A stretch of 64,000 bases of DNA from Amaricoccus macauensis. GTDB taxonomy: Bacteria > Pseudomonadota > Alphaproteobacteria > Rhodobacterales > Rhodobacteraceae. Positions 53,432-59,867 of the stretch are shown in pieces. Position numbers and translations under genes: made by a program. Under the pieces are notes generated by a model, which worked only from the letters and a program-made list of their open reading frames with translations, ran no database searches and was not told where the DNA came from. How positions within the stretch are numbered: the stretch's first letter is position 1; the number at the start of each line of letters is the position of its first letter. The stretch spans positions 62,001 to 126,000 of the forward strand of contig NZ_JACHFM010000003.1 of assembly GCF_014201905.1 (NCBI RefSeq), read 5' to 3'.

Positions 53432-55285
53432 ATGTTCCGTTTCTTCGAGTCGCTCGTCGACCCCTACGCGCCCTATGCGGAGCGCGACACGCCCCCCTCG
53501 CGGCTGTGGCCGTTCCTGAACGCCTACCTGCGGCCGGCGCGCAAGGTGATGGCCCTTACCATCGTCTCGGTCTTCGCCGTGGCGGTCGTGGAGATCTGGC
53601 TGATCTGGTACGCCGGCCGCATCGTCGATGTTCTGGGCGACACGACGCCGGCCGAGGTGTGGGCGCGCCACGGGCTCGAGCTTCTCGGCGTTGCCGCCTT
53701 CATTCTGGTGGCGCGGCCGTTGATTCAGACGGTCTCGGCCGCGCTCCTCAACCAGTCGCTGATGCCGAACGTCGGCACCATCGTGCGCTGGCGGGCGCAC
53801 CGGCACGTGCTGCGCCAGTCGGTCGGCTGGTTCCAGAGCGACTTTGCCGGGCGCATCGCCAACCGGATGATGCAGACCGCGCCGGCGGTGGGCGAGGCGA
53901 CGTTCCAGACCTTCGACGCCATCGTCTACTCGATGGTCTACCTCGCGGGCGCACTGTGGCTGCTCTCGGGCACCGACGTGCGGCTGGCGGTCCCGCTCGT
54001 CGTCTGGCTCGGGCTCTACATCTGGCTGGTCGCCTGGACGATCCCTCGCGTCGGCCGGGCCTCCAAGGCGTTCTCGGATGCCCGCTCGGCGATCACCGGG
54101 CGCATCGTCGACAGCTACACCAACATCCAGTCGGTGAAGCTCTTCGCGCACACGAGCACCGAGGAAGACTACGCCGGCGAGGCGATCGAGCACGCGCGGC
54201 GCACGTTCATGGACCAGATGCGGATCATCACCCTCATGGACCTCGGACTGACGGTGCTGAACGGCTTCCTGATCGTCGCGGTCATCGGCCTCGCGCTCCT
54301 GCTCTGGCAGGGCGGACATGCCACGATCGGTGCCGTGGCGGCAGCCTCGACGCTGACCTTGCGGCTCAACGCCATGACCGGCTGGATCATGTGGTCACTG
54401 TCGTCGCTGTTCCAGAACGTCGGCGTGATCCGCGAGGGGCTCGAGACCATCGGCCAGCCGCTCGATCTGACCGATGCGAAGGACGCGGCGGAACTCGACG
54501 TGACGAAAGGTGAGATCGTCTTCGACCACGTGCGCCACCACTACGGCCGCGGGTCGGGGGGGCTGGCCGACGTGTCGCTGACGATCCGCCCGGGCGAGAA
54601 GGTCGGCCTCGTCGGTCGCTCCGGCGCGGGCAAGTCGACGCTCGTCAACCTGATGCTGCGCTTCTTCGACACCGAGGGCGGCGCGATCCGCATCGACGGG
54701 CAGGACATCCGGTCGGTCACGCAGGACTCGCTCCGGCGCCAGATCGGCATGGTGACGCAGGACCCCTCGCTCCTGCACCGCTCGGTCAGTGCCAACATCC
54801 TCTATGGCCGTCCCGAGGCGTCGGAGGCCGAGGTGATCGCCGCCGCCGGGCGCGCCGAGGCGCACGCGTTCATCCTCGGCCTCGCGGATGGCAGCGGGCG
54901 CTCGGGCTACGACGCGCAGGTGGGCGAGCGGGGCGTGAAGCTCTCGGGTGGCCAGCGCCAGCGCATCGCGCTCGCCCGGGTGATCCTGAAGGACGCGCCG
55001 ATCCTCGTGCTCGACGAGGCGACGAGCGCGCTCGACTCCGAGGTCGAGGCGGCGATCCAGGAGACGCTTTACGGCGTCATGCAGGGCAAGACGGTGATCG
55101 CGATCGCGCACCGCCTCTCCACCATCGCCCGGATGGACCGCATCGTCGTCCTCGACGATGGCCGCATCGCCGAGGAGGGCACCCACGCCGATCTGCTGGC
55201 GAGGGACGGCCTCTACGCCCGGTTCTGGACGCGCCAGTCCGGGGGGTTCCTCGACCTCGGGCAGGGGACCGAGGCGGCCGAGTAA
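53432..55285 (+). CDS. ABC exporter (fused membrane and ATPase domains), first of a pair
   Basis: 617 residues: an N-terminal ABC membrane domain with six helices (first after RKVMALTIVSVFAVAVVEIW) and a C-terminal ATPase. Walker A is GRSGAGKST. The signature is LSGGQRQRIALARVILK, Walker B ILVLDEATSALDSEV and the H-loop AIAHRLSTI. Such half-transporters export lipids, peptides or drugs as homo- or heterodimers. The tandem second exporter has a closely similar ATPase end, so the two may form a heterodimer. ABC neighbours are PaiB-like and serS. Confidence 0.93.
   Translation: MFRFFESLVDPYAPYAERDTPPSRLWPFLNAYLRPARKVMALTIVSVFAVAVVEIWLIWYAGRIVDVLGDTTPAEVWARHGLELLGVAAFILVARPLIQTVSAALLNQSLMPNVGTIVRWRAHRHVLRQSVGWFQSDFAGRIANRMMQTAPAVGEATFQTFDAIVYSMVYLAGALWLLSGTDVRLAVPLVVWLGLYIWLVAWTIPRVGRASKAFSDARSAITGRIVDSYTNIQSVKLFAHTSTEEDYAGEAIEHARRTFMDQMRIITLMDLGLTVLNGFLIVAVIGLALLLWQGGHATIGAVAAASTLTLRLNAMTGWIMWSLSSLFQNVGVIREGLETIGQPLDLTDAKDAAELDVTKGEIVFDHVRHHYGRGSGGLADVSLTIRPGEKVGLVGRSGAGKSTLVNLMLRFFDTEGGAIRIDGQDIRSVTQDSLRRQIGMVTQDPSLLHRSVSANILYGRPEASEAEVIAAAGRAEAHAFILGLADGSGRSGYDAQVGERGVKLSGGQRQRIALARVILKDAPILVLDEATSALDSEVEAAIQETLYGVMQGKTVIAIAHRLSTIARMDRIVVLDDGRIAEEGTHADLLARDGLYARFWTRQSGGFLDLGQGTEAAE
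54977..55116 (+). repeat. 140-bp segment identical to 57095-57234
   Basis: This stretch of the first exporter's ATPase region is identical base for base to the matching stretch of the second exporter (offset 2118). The surrounding ATPase regions differ by scattered substitutions, and the membrane domains differ widely. Gene conversion between the tandem genes is the likely cause. Confidence 0.85.
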
Positions 55286-55537
55286 CTGCGGGGGGCGCCG
55301 GCCGCAGGGCCGGTGCCTGTCCCCGACGAGCGCAACCAGACACGCACCTCGTCGGGCCGTGATACGGCCACGGCCCGGCTTCTGAAACCAGCAACGGAGA
55401 TATTCCAGATGTCGAACCGGGACAGCACCCGCATTCGCCGGCACGCCCGCACCTGCATGGGCCACGTCACGAAAATTCCTCACCGGCTCCGAGCCTGATC
55501 CCGCCGGGACAGGCGAGCCGATCAGCGAGACTTCGTC
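55286..55537. other. Gap between the two ABC exporters with a small ORF and hairpins
   Basis: 252 bases. Three inverted repeats lie at 55295-55316 (CCGGCC/GGCCGG with flanking pairs), 55322-55356 (CCCGACGAG/CTCGTCGGG) and 55355-55375 (GGCCGTG/CACGGCC). A 29-codon ORF (55409-55498) with GGAG 8 bases upstream follows. The second exporter's own ribosome binding site is weak. Confidence 0.5.
55409..55498 (+). CDS. Small Arg/His-rich ORF (29 residues) before the second ABC exporter
   Basis: Peptide starting MSNRDSTRIRRHARTCMGHV, about 25 percent Arg plus three His. ATG at 55409 follows GGAG with an 8-base spacing; the TGA is at 55496-55498, 39 bases before the second exporter's start. No family match is possible at this length. 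Whether it is translated is unknown. Confidence 0.3.
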   Translation: MSNRDSTRIRRHARTCMGHVTKIPHRLRA

Positions 55538-57403
<1,866 letters not shown>

Positions 57404-57512
57404 TCCCGCCGCCGCGGTGGGAGGCGCCTCGCCCGCGATCCTCGCGGCAAGGCGCTTTTCATCGCGGCGGTTGTCGGCGATAACCCGGCCGGAACCGACG
57501 AAAGCCCGAGCA

Positions 57513-58805
57513 ATGCACGACATCCGACTGATCCGCGAAACCCCCGATGCCTTCGACGCCGCCCTCGCGCGGCGGGGGATCGCGCCCGTGTCGTCGGAAG
57601 TGCTCGCGATCGACGAGGGGCGGCGGGCACGCATCGCCGCCGCCGAGGCTGCGCTCGCCGAGCGCAACGCCGCGAGCCGCGAGGTCGGTGCCGCGAAGGC
57701 GAAAGGGGACGACGCGGAGTTTCAGCGCCTGCGCGCCCTCGTCGCCGAGAAGAAGGACGAGATCGCCCGTCTCGAGGCCGAAGCGGGCGCCGCCGACGGC
57801 GCGCTCCGCGAGACGCTGATGGGCATCGCGAACCTGCCCTATGACGACGTGCCCGATGGCGCCGACGAAAGCGGCAACGTCGAGGTTCGCCGCTGGGGGA
57901 CGCCGCGCAGCTTCGAGGGCAAGCCGCTCGAGCACTACGAGATCCCGGGCGCGAAGGCCGGGTTCGACTTCGAGGCGGCGGGCCGGCTCTCCGGCGCGCG
58001 CTTCGTGGTGCTGCGTGGCGGGCTGGTGCGCGTCCATCGCGCGCTCGCCCAGTTCATGCTCGATACCCATGTGGACAAGCACGGCCTGACCGAGATGTGG
58101 ACGCCGGTGCTGGTGCGTGACGAGGCGATGGTCGGCACCGGCCAGCTTCCGAAATTTGCCGAGGACAGCTACCAGACCACCAACGGCTGGTGGCTGGTGC
58201 CGACATCGGAAGTGACGCTGACGAACCTCCTCGCGGGGGAGATCGTCGACGGGGCGAGCCTGCCCCGGCGGATGACTGCGCACACCCAGTGCTTCCGCTC
58301 CGAGGCAGGGTCCGCCGGCAAGGACACCGCAGGCATGCTGCGCCAGCATCAGTTCGAGAAGGTCGAGATGGTCTCGATCACCCGGCCTGAGGAGAGCCGC
58401 GACGAGCAGGAGCGCATGGTCGGCTGCGCCGAGGCGATCCTGCAGGGGCTCGGGCTTCCCTACCGCGTGGTCATGCTCTGCACCGGCGACATGGGCTTTT
58501 CCGCGCGGCGGACCTACGACCTCGAGGTCTGGTTGCCCGGGCAGGACACCTACCGCGAGATCTCGTCGGTGTCGGACTGTGGCGACTTTCAGGCCCGGCG
58601 GATGAACGCTCGTTTCCGCCGCGAGGAGGGCGCGCGACCGGAGTTTGTCCACACGCTGAACGGGTCGGGCCTCGCGGTCGGCCGGACGCTCATTGCGGTG
58701 CTGGAGAACGGGCAGCAGGCGGACGGTTCGATCAGCCTGCCCGAAGCGCTCCACCCTTACCTCGGGGGGCGGACGCGGCTCACGCCGACGGGTGAGCTTG
58801 CCTGA
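57513..58805 (+). CDS. serS: Seryl-tRNA synthetase
   Basis: 430 residues. A long N-terminal coiled-coil arm (residues 30-105, with [20 protein letters not shown] and [16 protein letters not shown]) binds tRNA-Ser. The class II catalytic core has motif 2 ([20 protein letters not shown]) and motif 3 ([17 protein letters not shown]). It charges tRNA-Ser (and initiates selenocysteine synthesis where present). The ATG at 57513 is chosen by family start (MHDIRLIRE). A duplicated hairpin element lies after its stop. Confidence 0.96.
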
Positions 58806-58821
58806 GGGGCGTGCGGCTCGA

Positions 58822-59066
58822 CAATCGTGGTTAACGGCGCAGCGCCCCTAATCATGAGCGTAGGGGCGGCGGACCGGCCGGGGAAGCCGCCGCGTTTGCC
58901 GATGGTTAACGGTCCTGGCGGCGGAAGCGCGCTCCTCGGGCGGGGGGGCGCATTGTCCCTATCCCGGCCACGCTGCCAATCGTGGTTAACGCAGCCGCCC
59001 CCCCGATCATGAGCGTGGGGGCGGCCGAGCTTCTGTGGAAGCCGTCGCGGTTCCGGTTGGTACCGG
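58822..59066. repeat. Tandem ~90-bp element with a conserved-loop hairpin
   Basis: Copies at 58822-58912 and 58977-59066 (offset 155) share CAATCGTGGTTAACG at the start and a mid-hairpin with an identical 10-nt loop, ATCATGAGCG. The first stem is CGCCCCTA/TAGGGGCG (58843-58850 and 58861-58868). The second is 10 pairs with a 2-base bulge (58994-59005 and 59016-59025). T-A in the first becomes C-G in the second, so the stem is kept while the bases change. Confidence 0.75.
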
Positions 59067-59137
59067 TGGAGACTTCACGGGGGGGGGAGAACAGGGCGGC
59101 TCCCGGTCTCATGTCGCGCGGCGCCGGGGCGAGACGT

Positions 59138-59157
59138 GCCCGGGCGAGACCCCGGGC
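59138..59157 (-). terminator. Hairpin terminator after phoB
   Basis: A perfect 7-bp dyad GCCCGGG/CCCGGGC with a 6-nt loop lies 15 bases after the phoB stop on its strand. No T-rich tail is present. Confidence 0.45.
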
Positions 59158-59171
59158 AACGGCGCCCGGGT

Positions 59172-59867
59172 TCAGTTGCCGTAGGTCTCGTCGAGGGCAT
59201 ACCCCGAGGAACGCACGGTTCGGATGGGATCGCGGTCGCCGCTGCGATTGAGCGCCTTCCTCAAGCGGCCGATGTGGACGTCGACAGTGCGGATCTCCAC
59301 GTAGACGTCCTGTCCCCAGACCCGGTCGAGGAGCTGTTCGCGCGAGTAGACCCGGCCCGGGCGCTGCATCAGCGCGTCGAGCAGGCGGAATTCGGTGGGG
59401 CCGAGATGGATGTCGCGCTTGCCGCGCCGGACGCGGCACTGCTGCCGGTCGAGGACGATGTCGGCGAAGGTCGCCACGTCGCCGGCGAGGGCGGGGGCCG
59501 AGCGCCGCAGCACGGCGCGCATCCGGGCGACGAGCTCCGACATGGAGAAGGGCTTGGTCACGTAGTCGTCGGCGCCGACGTCGAGGCCGCGCACCCGGTC
59601 TTCTTCCTCACCGCGCGCGGTGAGCATGATGACGGGTAGTTCACGGGTGTTCGGACGGGCGCGGAGCTGCCGGCAGAGCTCGATGCCCGAGACGTTCGGC
59701 AGCATCCAGTCGAGCAGCACGAGGTCGGGAAGTTCCTCCTCGAGGGCGACGAGCGCCTCGTCGCCGTCGCCGGCGACCCTGACGGTGAAGCCCTCCTTTT
59801 CGAGGTTGTAGGCGAGAAGCTGGGCGATCGCCTCTTCGTCCTCGATCACCAGAACCTTGGCTGCCAT
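59172..59867 (-). CDS. phoB: Phosphate regulon response regulator
   Basis: 231 residues. The receiver domain has the phospho-acceptor Asp near residue 53 (LVLLDWMLPNVSG), an acidic pocket (VIEDEE) and Lys near 105 (VTKPF). The C-terminal winged helix (GPTEFRLLDALMQRPGRVYS, then VDVHIGRLRKALNR) is of the OmpR/PhoB type. It activates phosphate-starvation genes. It is read after phoU with 7 bases between. The histidine kinase PhoR and the pst genes are not nearby. Confidence 0.92.
   Translation of the reverse strand: MAAKVLVIEDEEAIAQLLAYNLEKEGFTVRVAGDGDEALVALEEELPDLVLLDWMLPNVSGIELCRQLRARPNTRELPVIMLTARGEEEDRVRGLDVGADDYVTKPFSMSELVARMRAVLRRSAPALAGDVATFADIVLDRQQCRVRRGKRDIHLGPTEFRLLDALMQRPGRVYSREQLLDRVWGQDVYVEIRTVDVHIGRLRKALNRSGDRDPIRTVRSSGYALDETYGN

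Follow-up and report, generated by a model that had tools for sequence, protein, structure and literature searches.

The intergenic DNA separating serS from phoB contains a short duplicated element, and the question that it raises is whether this element is maintained as an RNA structure, as was proposed when the locus was first inspected, or is recognised in some other way. That inspection (the sequence-only reading) described two copies of ~90 bp, 155 bases apart and starting alike, between convergent genes, and on each of these points it was confirmed: the copies (58822–58906 and 58977–59061) are 85 nt each, 79% identical and 155 bp apart from start to start, both open with CAATCGTGGTTAACG, and both neighbouring genes were verified by NCBIfam (Table 1). 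A third TGGTTAACG, overlooked at that stage, proved to be the far end of copy 1; in copy 2 the corresponding end is degenerate, reading GGTTGGTACC in place of GGTTAACG. The window, meaning the whole 64 kb stretch of DNA that was analysed, contains only three GTTAAC sites, all of them within these copies, the first of which starts 22 bp past the serS stop codon.

Table 1. Positions of the two element copies, their component motifs and the flanking genes, numbered from the first letter of the window.
Feature	Position	Strand	Remarks
Element copy 1, GTTAAC-bounded module	58828..58911	+	Top family-model match, E 8e-19; TGGTTAACGGCGCAGCGCCCC first
Element copy 2, local duplicate	58983..59061	+	Family model E 1.5e-12
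Copy 1 first TGGTTAACG box	58828..58836	+	
Copy 1 second TGGTTAACG box	58903..58911	+	75 bp from first box
Copy 2 first TGGTTAACG box	58983..58991	+	
Copy 1 conserved block GCGCAGCGCCCCTAAT (family SCGnAGCGCCCCTGAT)	58837..58852	+	From column counts
Copy 1 -10-like hexamer TACGCT (family TAnnnT)	58857..58862	-	
Copy 1 -35-like hexamer TTCCCC	58880..58885	-	17 bp from -10-like hexamer
Copy 2 -10-like hexamer CACGCT	59012..59017	-	
Copy 2 -35-like hexamer TTCCAC	59035..59040	-	
Copy 1 hairpin, CCCCTA - ATCATGAGCG - TAGGGG	58845..58866	.	Inverted repeat across -10-like site
Copy 2 hairpin, CCCCCG - ATCATGAGCG - TGGGGG	59000..59021	.	
serS	57495..58805	+	3' end precedes element; TIGR00414, E 3e-144
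phoB	59172..59867	-	Convergent neighbour; TIGR02154, E 9e-105

BLASTN searches detected weaker copies elsewhere in the same genome (G000), the alignment of which revealed a common plan: an element of ~82 bp, TGGTTAACG-(G)CGnAGCGCCCC-TGAT...GAnnnTAG...GGGAA...GGTTAACG, in which two direct GTTAAC boxes lie ~75 bp apart with the boundaries GGTTAAC ... GTTAACG. The frame pattern GGTTAAC N60-80 GTTAAC matched the genome 19 times, several of the matches being one copy read twice, and the reversed control gave none. A primary-sequence model of the family returned 17 matches with E-values from 8e-19 to 2e-11, the next match appearing only at 0.006; 16 of the 17 were the copies on which the model had been trained, and the remaining one (L190, E 1e-12) was found by the model itself. 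The pair is consequently more than the chance local duplication envisaged by the sequence-only reading for the event that no copies occurred elsewhere, since 15 further copies bring the total to 17 at E < 1e-10. A search of a plasmid collection gave no meaningful match to the element.

Over the 17 copies the conserved columns comprised TGGTTAACG (the first box being present in 16 of 17), CGnAGCGCCCC, TGAT, GA, TA(G), GGAA and the second GTTAAC, with the spacers near background. Mean pairwise agreement in the 35 unconserved columns was 31.5%, compared with the 28.8% expected from composition, and the corresponding values for the window pair and the second-best pair were 74% and 52%, respectively. 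The window pair is regarded as a true local duplication because it agrees so closely where the other copies are at chance. Those other copies, alike at little but their motif positions, would be of great age, or else each would be maintained by selection on the motifs; discrete conserved motifs separated by columns at chance argue that the copies are probably joined by constraint, not by recent ancestry.

The claim that structure is selected did not survive the extension from two copies to many. The loop ATCATGAGCG is identical in the window pair (58851–58860 and 59006–59015), as had been stated, but it is not fixed in the family, and was discarded as a family hallmark: 16 of its 18 occurrences in the genome are without any surrounding element. 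The compensating changes described for the stem (T-A to C-G and A-T to G-T) are correct for the window pair. Across 16 aligned copies the hairpin positions were paired in 63% of cases against 60% in shuffled alignments, and pairs changed on both sides numbered 3 against 2.0 expected, a value reached by 119 of 500 shuffles. The percentage paired was matched by 8 of 500 shuffles and the covariation score by 3 of 500, low counts that carry little weight because two of the same copies had supplied the structure, a circumstance that can alone yield such values. RNAalifold, applied to the 16 copies, gave no internal helix, only a GUUAAC-GUUAAC closing helix without covariation.

A structured RNA, whether hairpin terminator or small RNA, can call upon the pairing of the window copies, which survives two changes, upon the ability of four other copies (L181, L182, L184 and L185) to form a related inverted repeat, and upon the folding of copy 2 (z about -2.5; -2.4 on the plus strand and -2.7 on the minus strand), the only member of the window pair clearly more stable than its shuffles (copy 1, -0.8 and -1.1). 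Against it are the failure of the hairpin to persist across the 16 copies, family mean folding z values of only -0.7 (+) and -1.2 (-), the absence of a T-run after the stem or of any terminator-like site in 58800–59170, and the lack of a match to any curated Rfam family; it was judged the least probable of the explanations considered. The small-RNA gene suggested at the outset is unlikely as a structured species, there being no family-wide fold. The bidirectional terminator suggested alongside it fared better in its position than in its hairpin: like intrinsic bidirectional terminators between convergent genes, the element lies just past stop codons and mostly between convergent pairs, but it has neither a conserved G+C-rich stem nor a T-run. 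Pairing seen in two copies was thus weak evidence of RNA structure; once 16 copies were considered, the covariation weakened and motifs at the DNA level came to light.

Placement relative to genes proved far more consistent. Calls made with a home-made, codon-based scorer indicated that the 3' end of the right-hand gene faced the element in 17 of 17 copies, and that of the left-hand gene in 14 of 17, equivalent to 13 of 16 loci with the window pair counted once. The proportion of convergent loci (13/16) compares with 7/51 in a small baseline of intergenic regions 110 bp or longer, taken from the window and from unrelated loci of the same genome (binomial p about 2e-9). The gaps were themselves asymmetric, mostly 8–49 bp on the left and 50–260 bp on the right (Wilcoxon p 0.0015), and the element usually starts ~20 bp after the stop codon of the left gene. 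Neighbouring genes included homologues of tex, purK and phaC, identified by Pfam, and hemB-, glmM-, yebC- and zapE-like genes, identified by inspection of translations. Three copies (L179, L185 and L190) occupied tandem-gene positions, where their units could be the ordinary promoter of the next gene. The explanation preferred, at a probability of roughly 0.4, is that the element would be a DNA module marking gene 3' ends in its 17 copies, and recognised by a protein, not folded as RNA; it is favoured by the oriented spacing from stop codons, by conservation at the DNA level and by a periodicity of about one helical turn in relatives (see below).

Read on the opposite strand, the same conserved columns take the form TTCCCN, a spacer, TAnnnT and then 7–8 bp to GGGGCGCTnCGCCGTTAACCA, a sigma-70 geometry in which the spacer between the hexamers measures 17 bp in all but one of the 17 copies, where it is 18 bp. 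The promoter-geometry score of 4.98, against 1.93 ± 0.19 in 500 shuffles (maximum 2.44), is more description than test, having been devised after the pattern was seen. The most constant positions are those of greatest weight in a -10 element. As in sigma-70 promoters with flanking operators, the element has 17 bp spacing (within a range of 16–18 bp), conservation at -12, -11 and -7, and a conserved block over the predicted start; unlike them, it presents TTCCC at -35 in place of the consensus TTGACA, and most units face a gene 3' end, not a start codon. The hexamers of window copy 2 are weaker. In copy 1 the conserved block listed in Table 1 would correspond either to the first stretch transcribed from this minus-strand promoter-like unit or to its operator.

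A regulon of real promoters might account for this arrangement, the minus-strand unit being transcribed into short or antisense RNAs at the ends of genes under the control of a regulator, perhaps of the OmpR family such as CtrA, bound to the two GTTAAC boxes. The rigid 17-bp geometry and the block over the predicted start both accord with such a regulon, as do the three copies lying upstream of a gene in the correct direction and the motif GTTAACCA, which resembles the CtrA half-site TTAACCAT. A promoter alone, however, leaves unexplained the ~20 bp spacing from the stop codon of a gene on the opposite strand; furthermore, the same-frame elements of relatives are not promoter-like and a common RNA fold is absent. 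This explanation, which overlaps with the preferred gene-end reading, is considered distinctly unlikely.

Two further promoter-like features were noted in the course of this analysis. A candidate plus-strand EcfG-type promoter (GGAAC, 16–17 bp, CGTT) gave a rough fit by eye at spacings of 16–18 bp and was rejected, its -10 being mostly GGTT and its spacing more variable than that of the minus-strand unit. Between the two window copies a separate pair, TTGGCA-N16-GACAAT (58979–58952, minus strand), is directed toward copy 1 and serS, and may be meaningless since about one such site per 14 kb is expected by chance.

Comparison with relatives was conducted across considerable distances, SerS matches, by which the genome was placed in the Rhodobacteraceae, reaching 76–79% at most and same-genus relatives being deeply diverged. 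The strict motif of G000 was absent from 40 relatives, its exact pattern had no match in a GTDB contig collection that may omit the genome itself, and no element was found in the region after serS in relatives (30 loci, own locus included). The family model identified one convincing copy, in G009 (E 3e-7), together with a similar, weaker copy (L217) in the same genome. Looser searches matched elements with the same frame 41 times in G002, 28 times in G003 and five times in G019, and G096 yielded at least 40 matches among 114 candidates. The interiors of these elements consist of 3–4 direct repeats every 11 bp, the word of which differs by genome: GGGTATCGAAA in G002, ATGCACGACCC in G003, GTATGGAAACC in G008 and G093, GTCATACAAAA in G171 and TGACATCCGGC in G096. 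The lag-11 periodicity was pronounced (z of 19.6 in G002 and 22.9 in G003), and recognition as DNA is favoured over recognition as RNA because the period is about one helical turn. No 11-bp array was present in the G000 copies when these were checked for one.

Response regulators of the OmpR/PhoB family bind direct 7-mers that recur every 11 bp. The relatives' elements resemble such sites in having an interior of 3–4 direct repeats at that period, but differ in that the repeat word varies by genome and that placement is at gene ends, not upstream of genes; G000 differs in having no array. The periodic arrays, the fixed GTTAAC frame and the dispersal of the copies would suit the binding of a protein that organises the nucleoid or chromosome, tolerates only intergenic gene ends and has no role in transcription. 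Tight, oriented spacing from stop codons is unnecessary for such a role, and this explanation is thought very improbable.

The relation of the relatives' elements to genes varied between genomes. In G096 and G002 most elements had a stop codon close to one end: 20 of 26 G096 elements had a left gene directed at them, the right gene running either way, and 18 of 30 G002 elements had the end of the right gene no more than about 17 bp away. The G003 elements had no clear link to stop codons with the gene calls used. Two variant forms were recorded in G096 (L098-L105 and L149-L176), one with extra TTAA boxes past the second GTTAAC (GTTAACGCGCGTTAAGGTTAA), and the other with an arm of similar length (40 bp) terminating in GGTTAAC.

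Four positions were each common to two species. Three of the five G019 copies lay next to a gene or gene pair that also adjoins one of the 26 G096 copies compared, with different interiors, and copies L321 of G003 and L081 of G008 had both neighbours in common and different 11-bp words. These shared positions argue against random insertion, which would not yield common neighbours. Among the genomes compared, no flanking genes were common to G000 loci and relatives' elements; persistence of position is seen in the relatives' pairs (G019/G096 and G003/G008), not in G000.

The strongest rival to a gene-end module is a MITE- or REP-like mobile repeat, non-autonomous and copying itself into intergenic DNA behind genes as the least harmful site, with GTTAAC as its ends or target and a separate population in each lineage. 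Such a repeat, a possibility already raised by the sequence-only reading and still a live one, would be consistent with tens of dispersed copies per genome of lineage-specific sequence, with a post-serS location not common to relatives, and with the local duplication in the window. It is also consistent with a G003 subfamily (L302, L306, L308, L309, L311, L313, L323 and L324) in which similarity continues at least 25 bp past both boxes, which suggests that the repeated unit is longer or has spread recently. Mobility accords less well with G000 copies that are saturated between motif positions and have no close kin except the window pair, with an orientation to the adjacent stop codon that is largely fixed, with the positions common to two species, and with the absence of terminal inverted repeats beyond GTTAAC itself, although direct and inverted ends are indistinguishable where the box is its own inverse. 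On balance, a mobile repeat seems somewhat unlikely.

Repeats dispersed through intergenic DNA are already known. REPs, for example, are palindromic 16-mers in inverted doublets that form hairpins (REP/REPIN with RAYT transposases; PMC3116915). The element resembles REP/REPIN in being short, dispersed, extragenic and present in tens or more per genome with lineage-particular sequence types, but differs in its direct boxes, its lack of a conserved palindrome save GTTAAC and its random inter-motif positions. Integron attC sites have RYYYAAC ... GTTRRRY boundaries and occur in a cassette array; the element shares with them a similar length, a location behind stop codons and GTT...AAC boundaries able to pair, whereas its own boundary is GTTAAC and it is flanked by housekeeping genes at scattered locations, not by cassettes. 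Palindromes starting GTAGG were observed near some relatives' gene ends (L131, after the G009 serS, and L102 and L149 of G096), examples being GTAGGGCGGACCTCGGTCCGCC, in an inverted pair, and CGTAGGCCGGGCTTCAGCCCGGC; they look like true REPs, separate from the GTTAAC elements.

Under the preferred reading of a protein-recognised module at gene ends, RNA polymerase leaving a gene would meet a protein at the GTTAAC boxes and/or the polymerase of an opposing promoter, and stop; at serS, transcription would be kept from running antisense into phoB. The signal at the gene end would then be provided by a bound protein or an opposing polymerase, not by an RNA hairpin. The relatives appear to have the same GTTAAC frame with an 11-bp site array replacing the promoter-like unit, and a single mechanism for both is an extrapolation, given interiors that are not promoter-like in the relatives and the absence of the array from G000. 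A broader proposal, and one regarded as doubtful, is that these elements might constitute a class of protein-dependent gene-end elements in Rhodobacteraceae, with a fixed GTTAAC frame, an interior replaced genome-wide in each species, positions kept, and cis-sites co-evolving with a rapidly changing DNA-binding factor by which transcription is ended or insulated. Lineage-wise replacement of interiors at sometimes conserved places would represent an unusual co-evolution of dispersed control sites. In the open-licence papers searched, no description was found of a fixed GTTAAC frame combined with a lineage-specific interior and gene-end placement, nor was the element found described in the literature on Rhodobacteraceae repeats and mobile promoters.

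Two minor observations were made in the vicinity of serS genes. Among 80 named serS loci, that of Oceanicola sp. isolate m2 (L278:1358) has a GTTAAC-bounded element with an 11-bp array just upstream of serS. Within the window itself, an internally repetitive minus-strand shadow ORF of 969 aa (54395–57304) lies opposite apparent tandem ABC-exporter genes, one of which (55538–57403) matched MsbA-like families.
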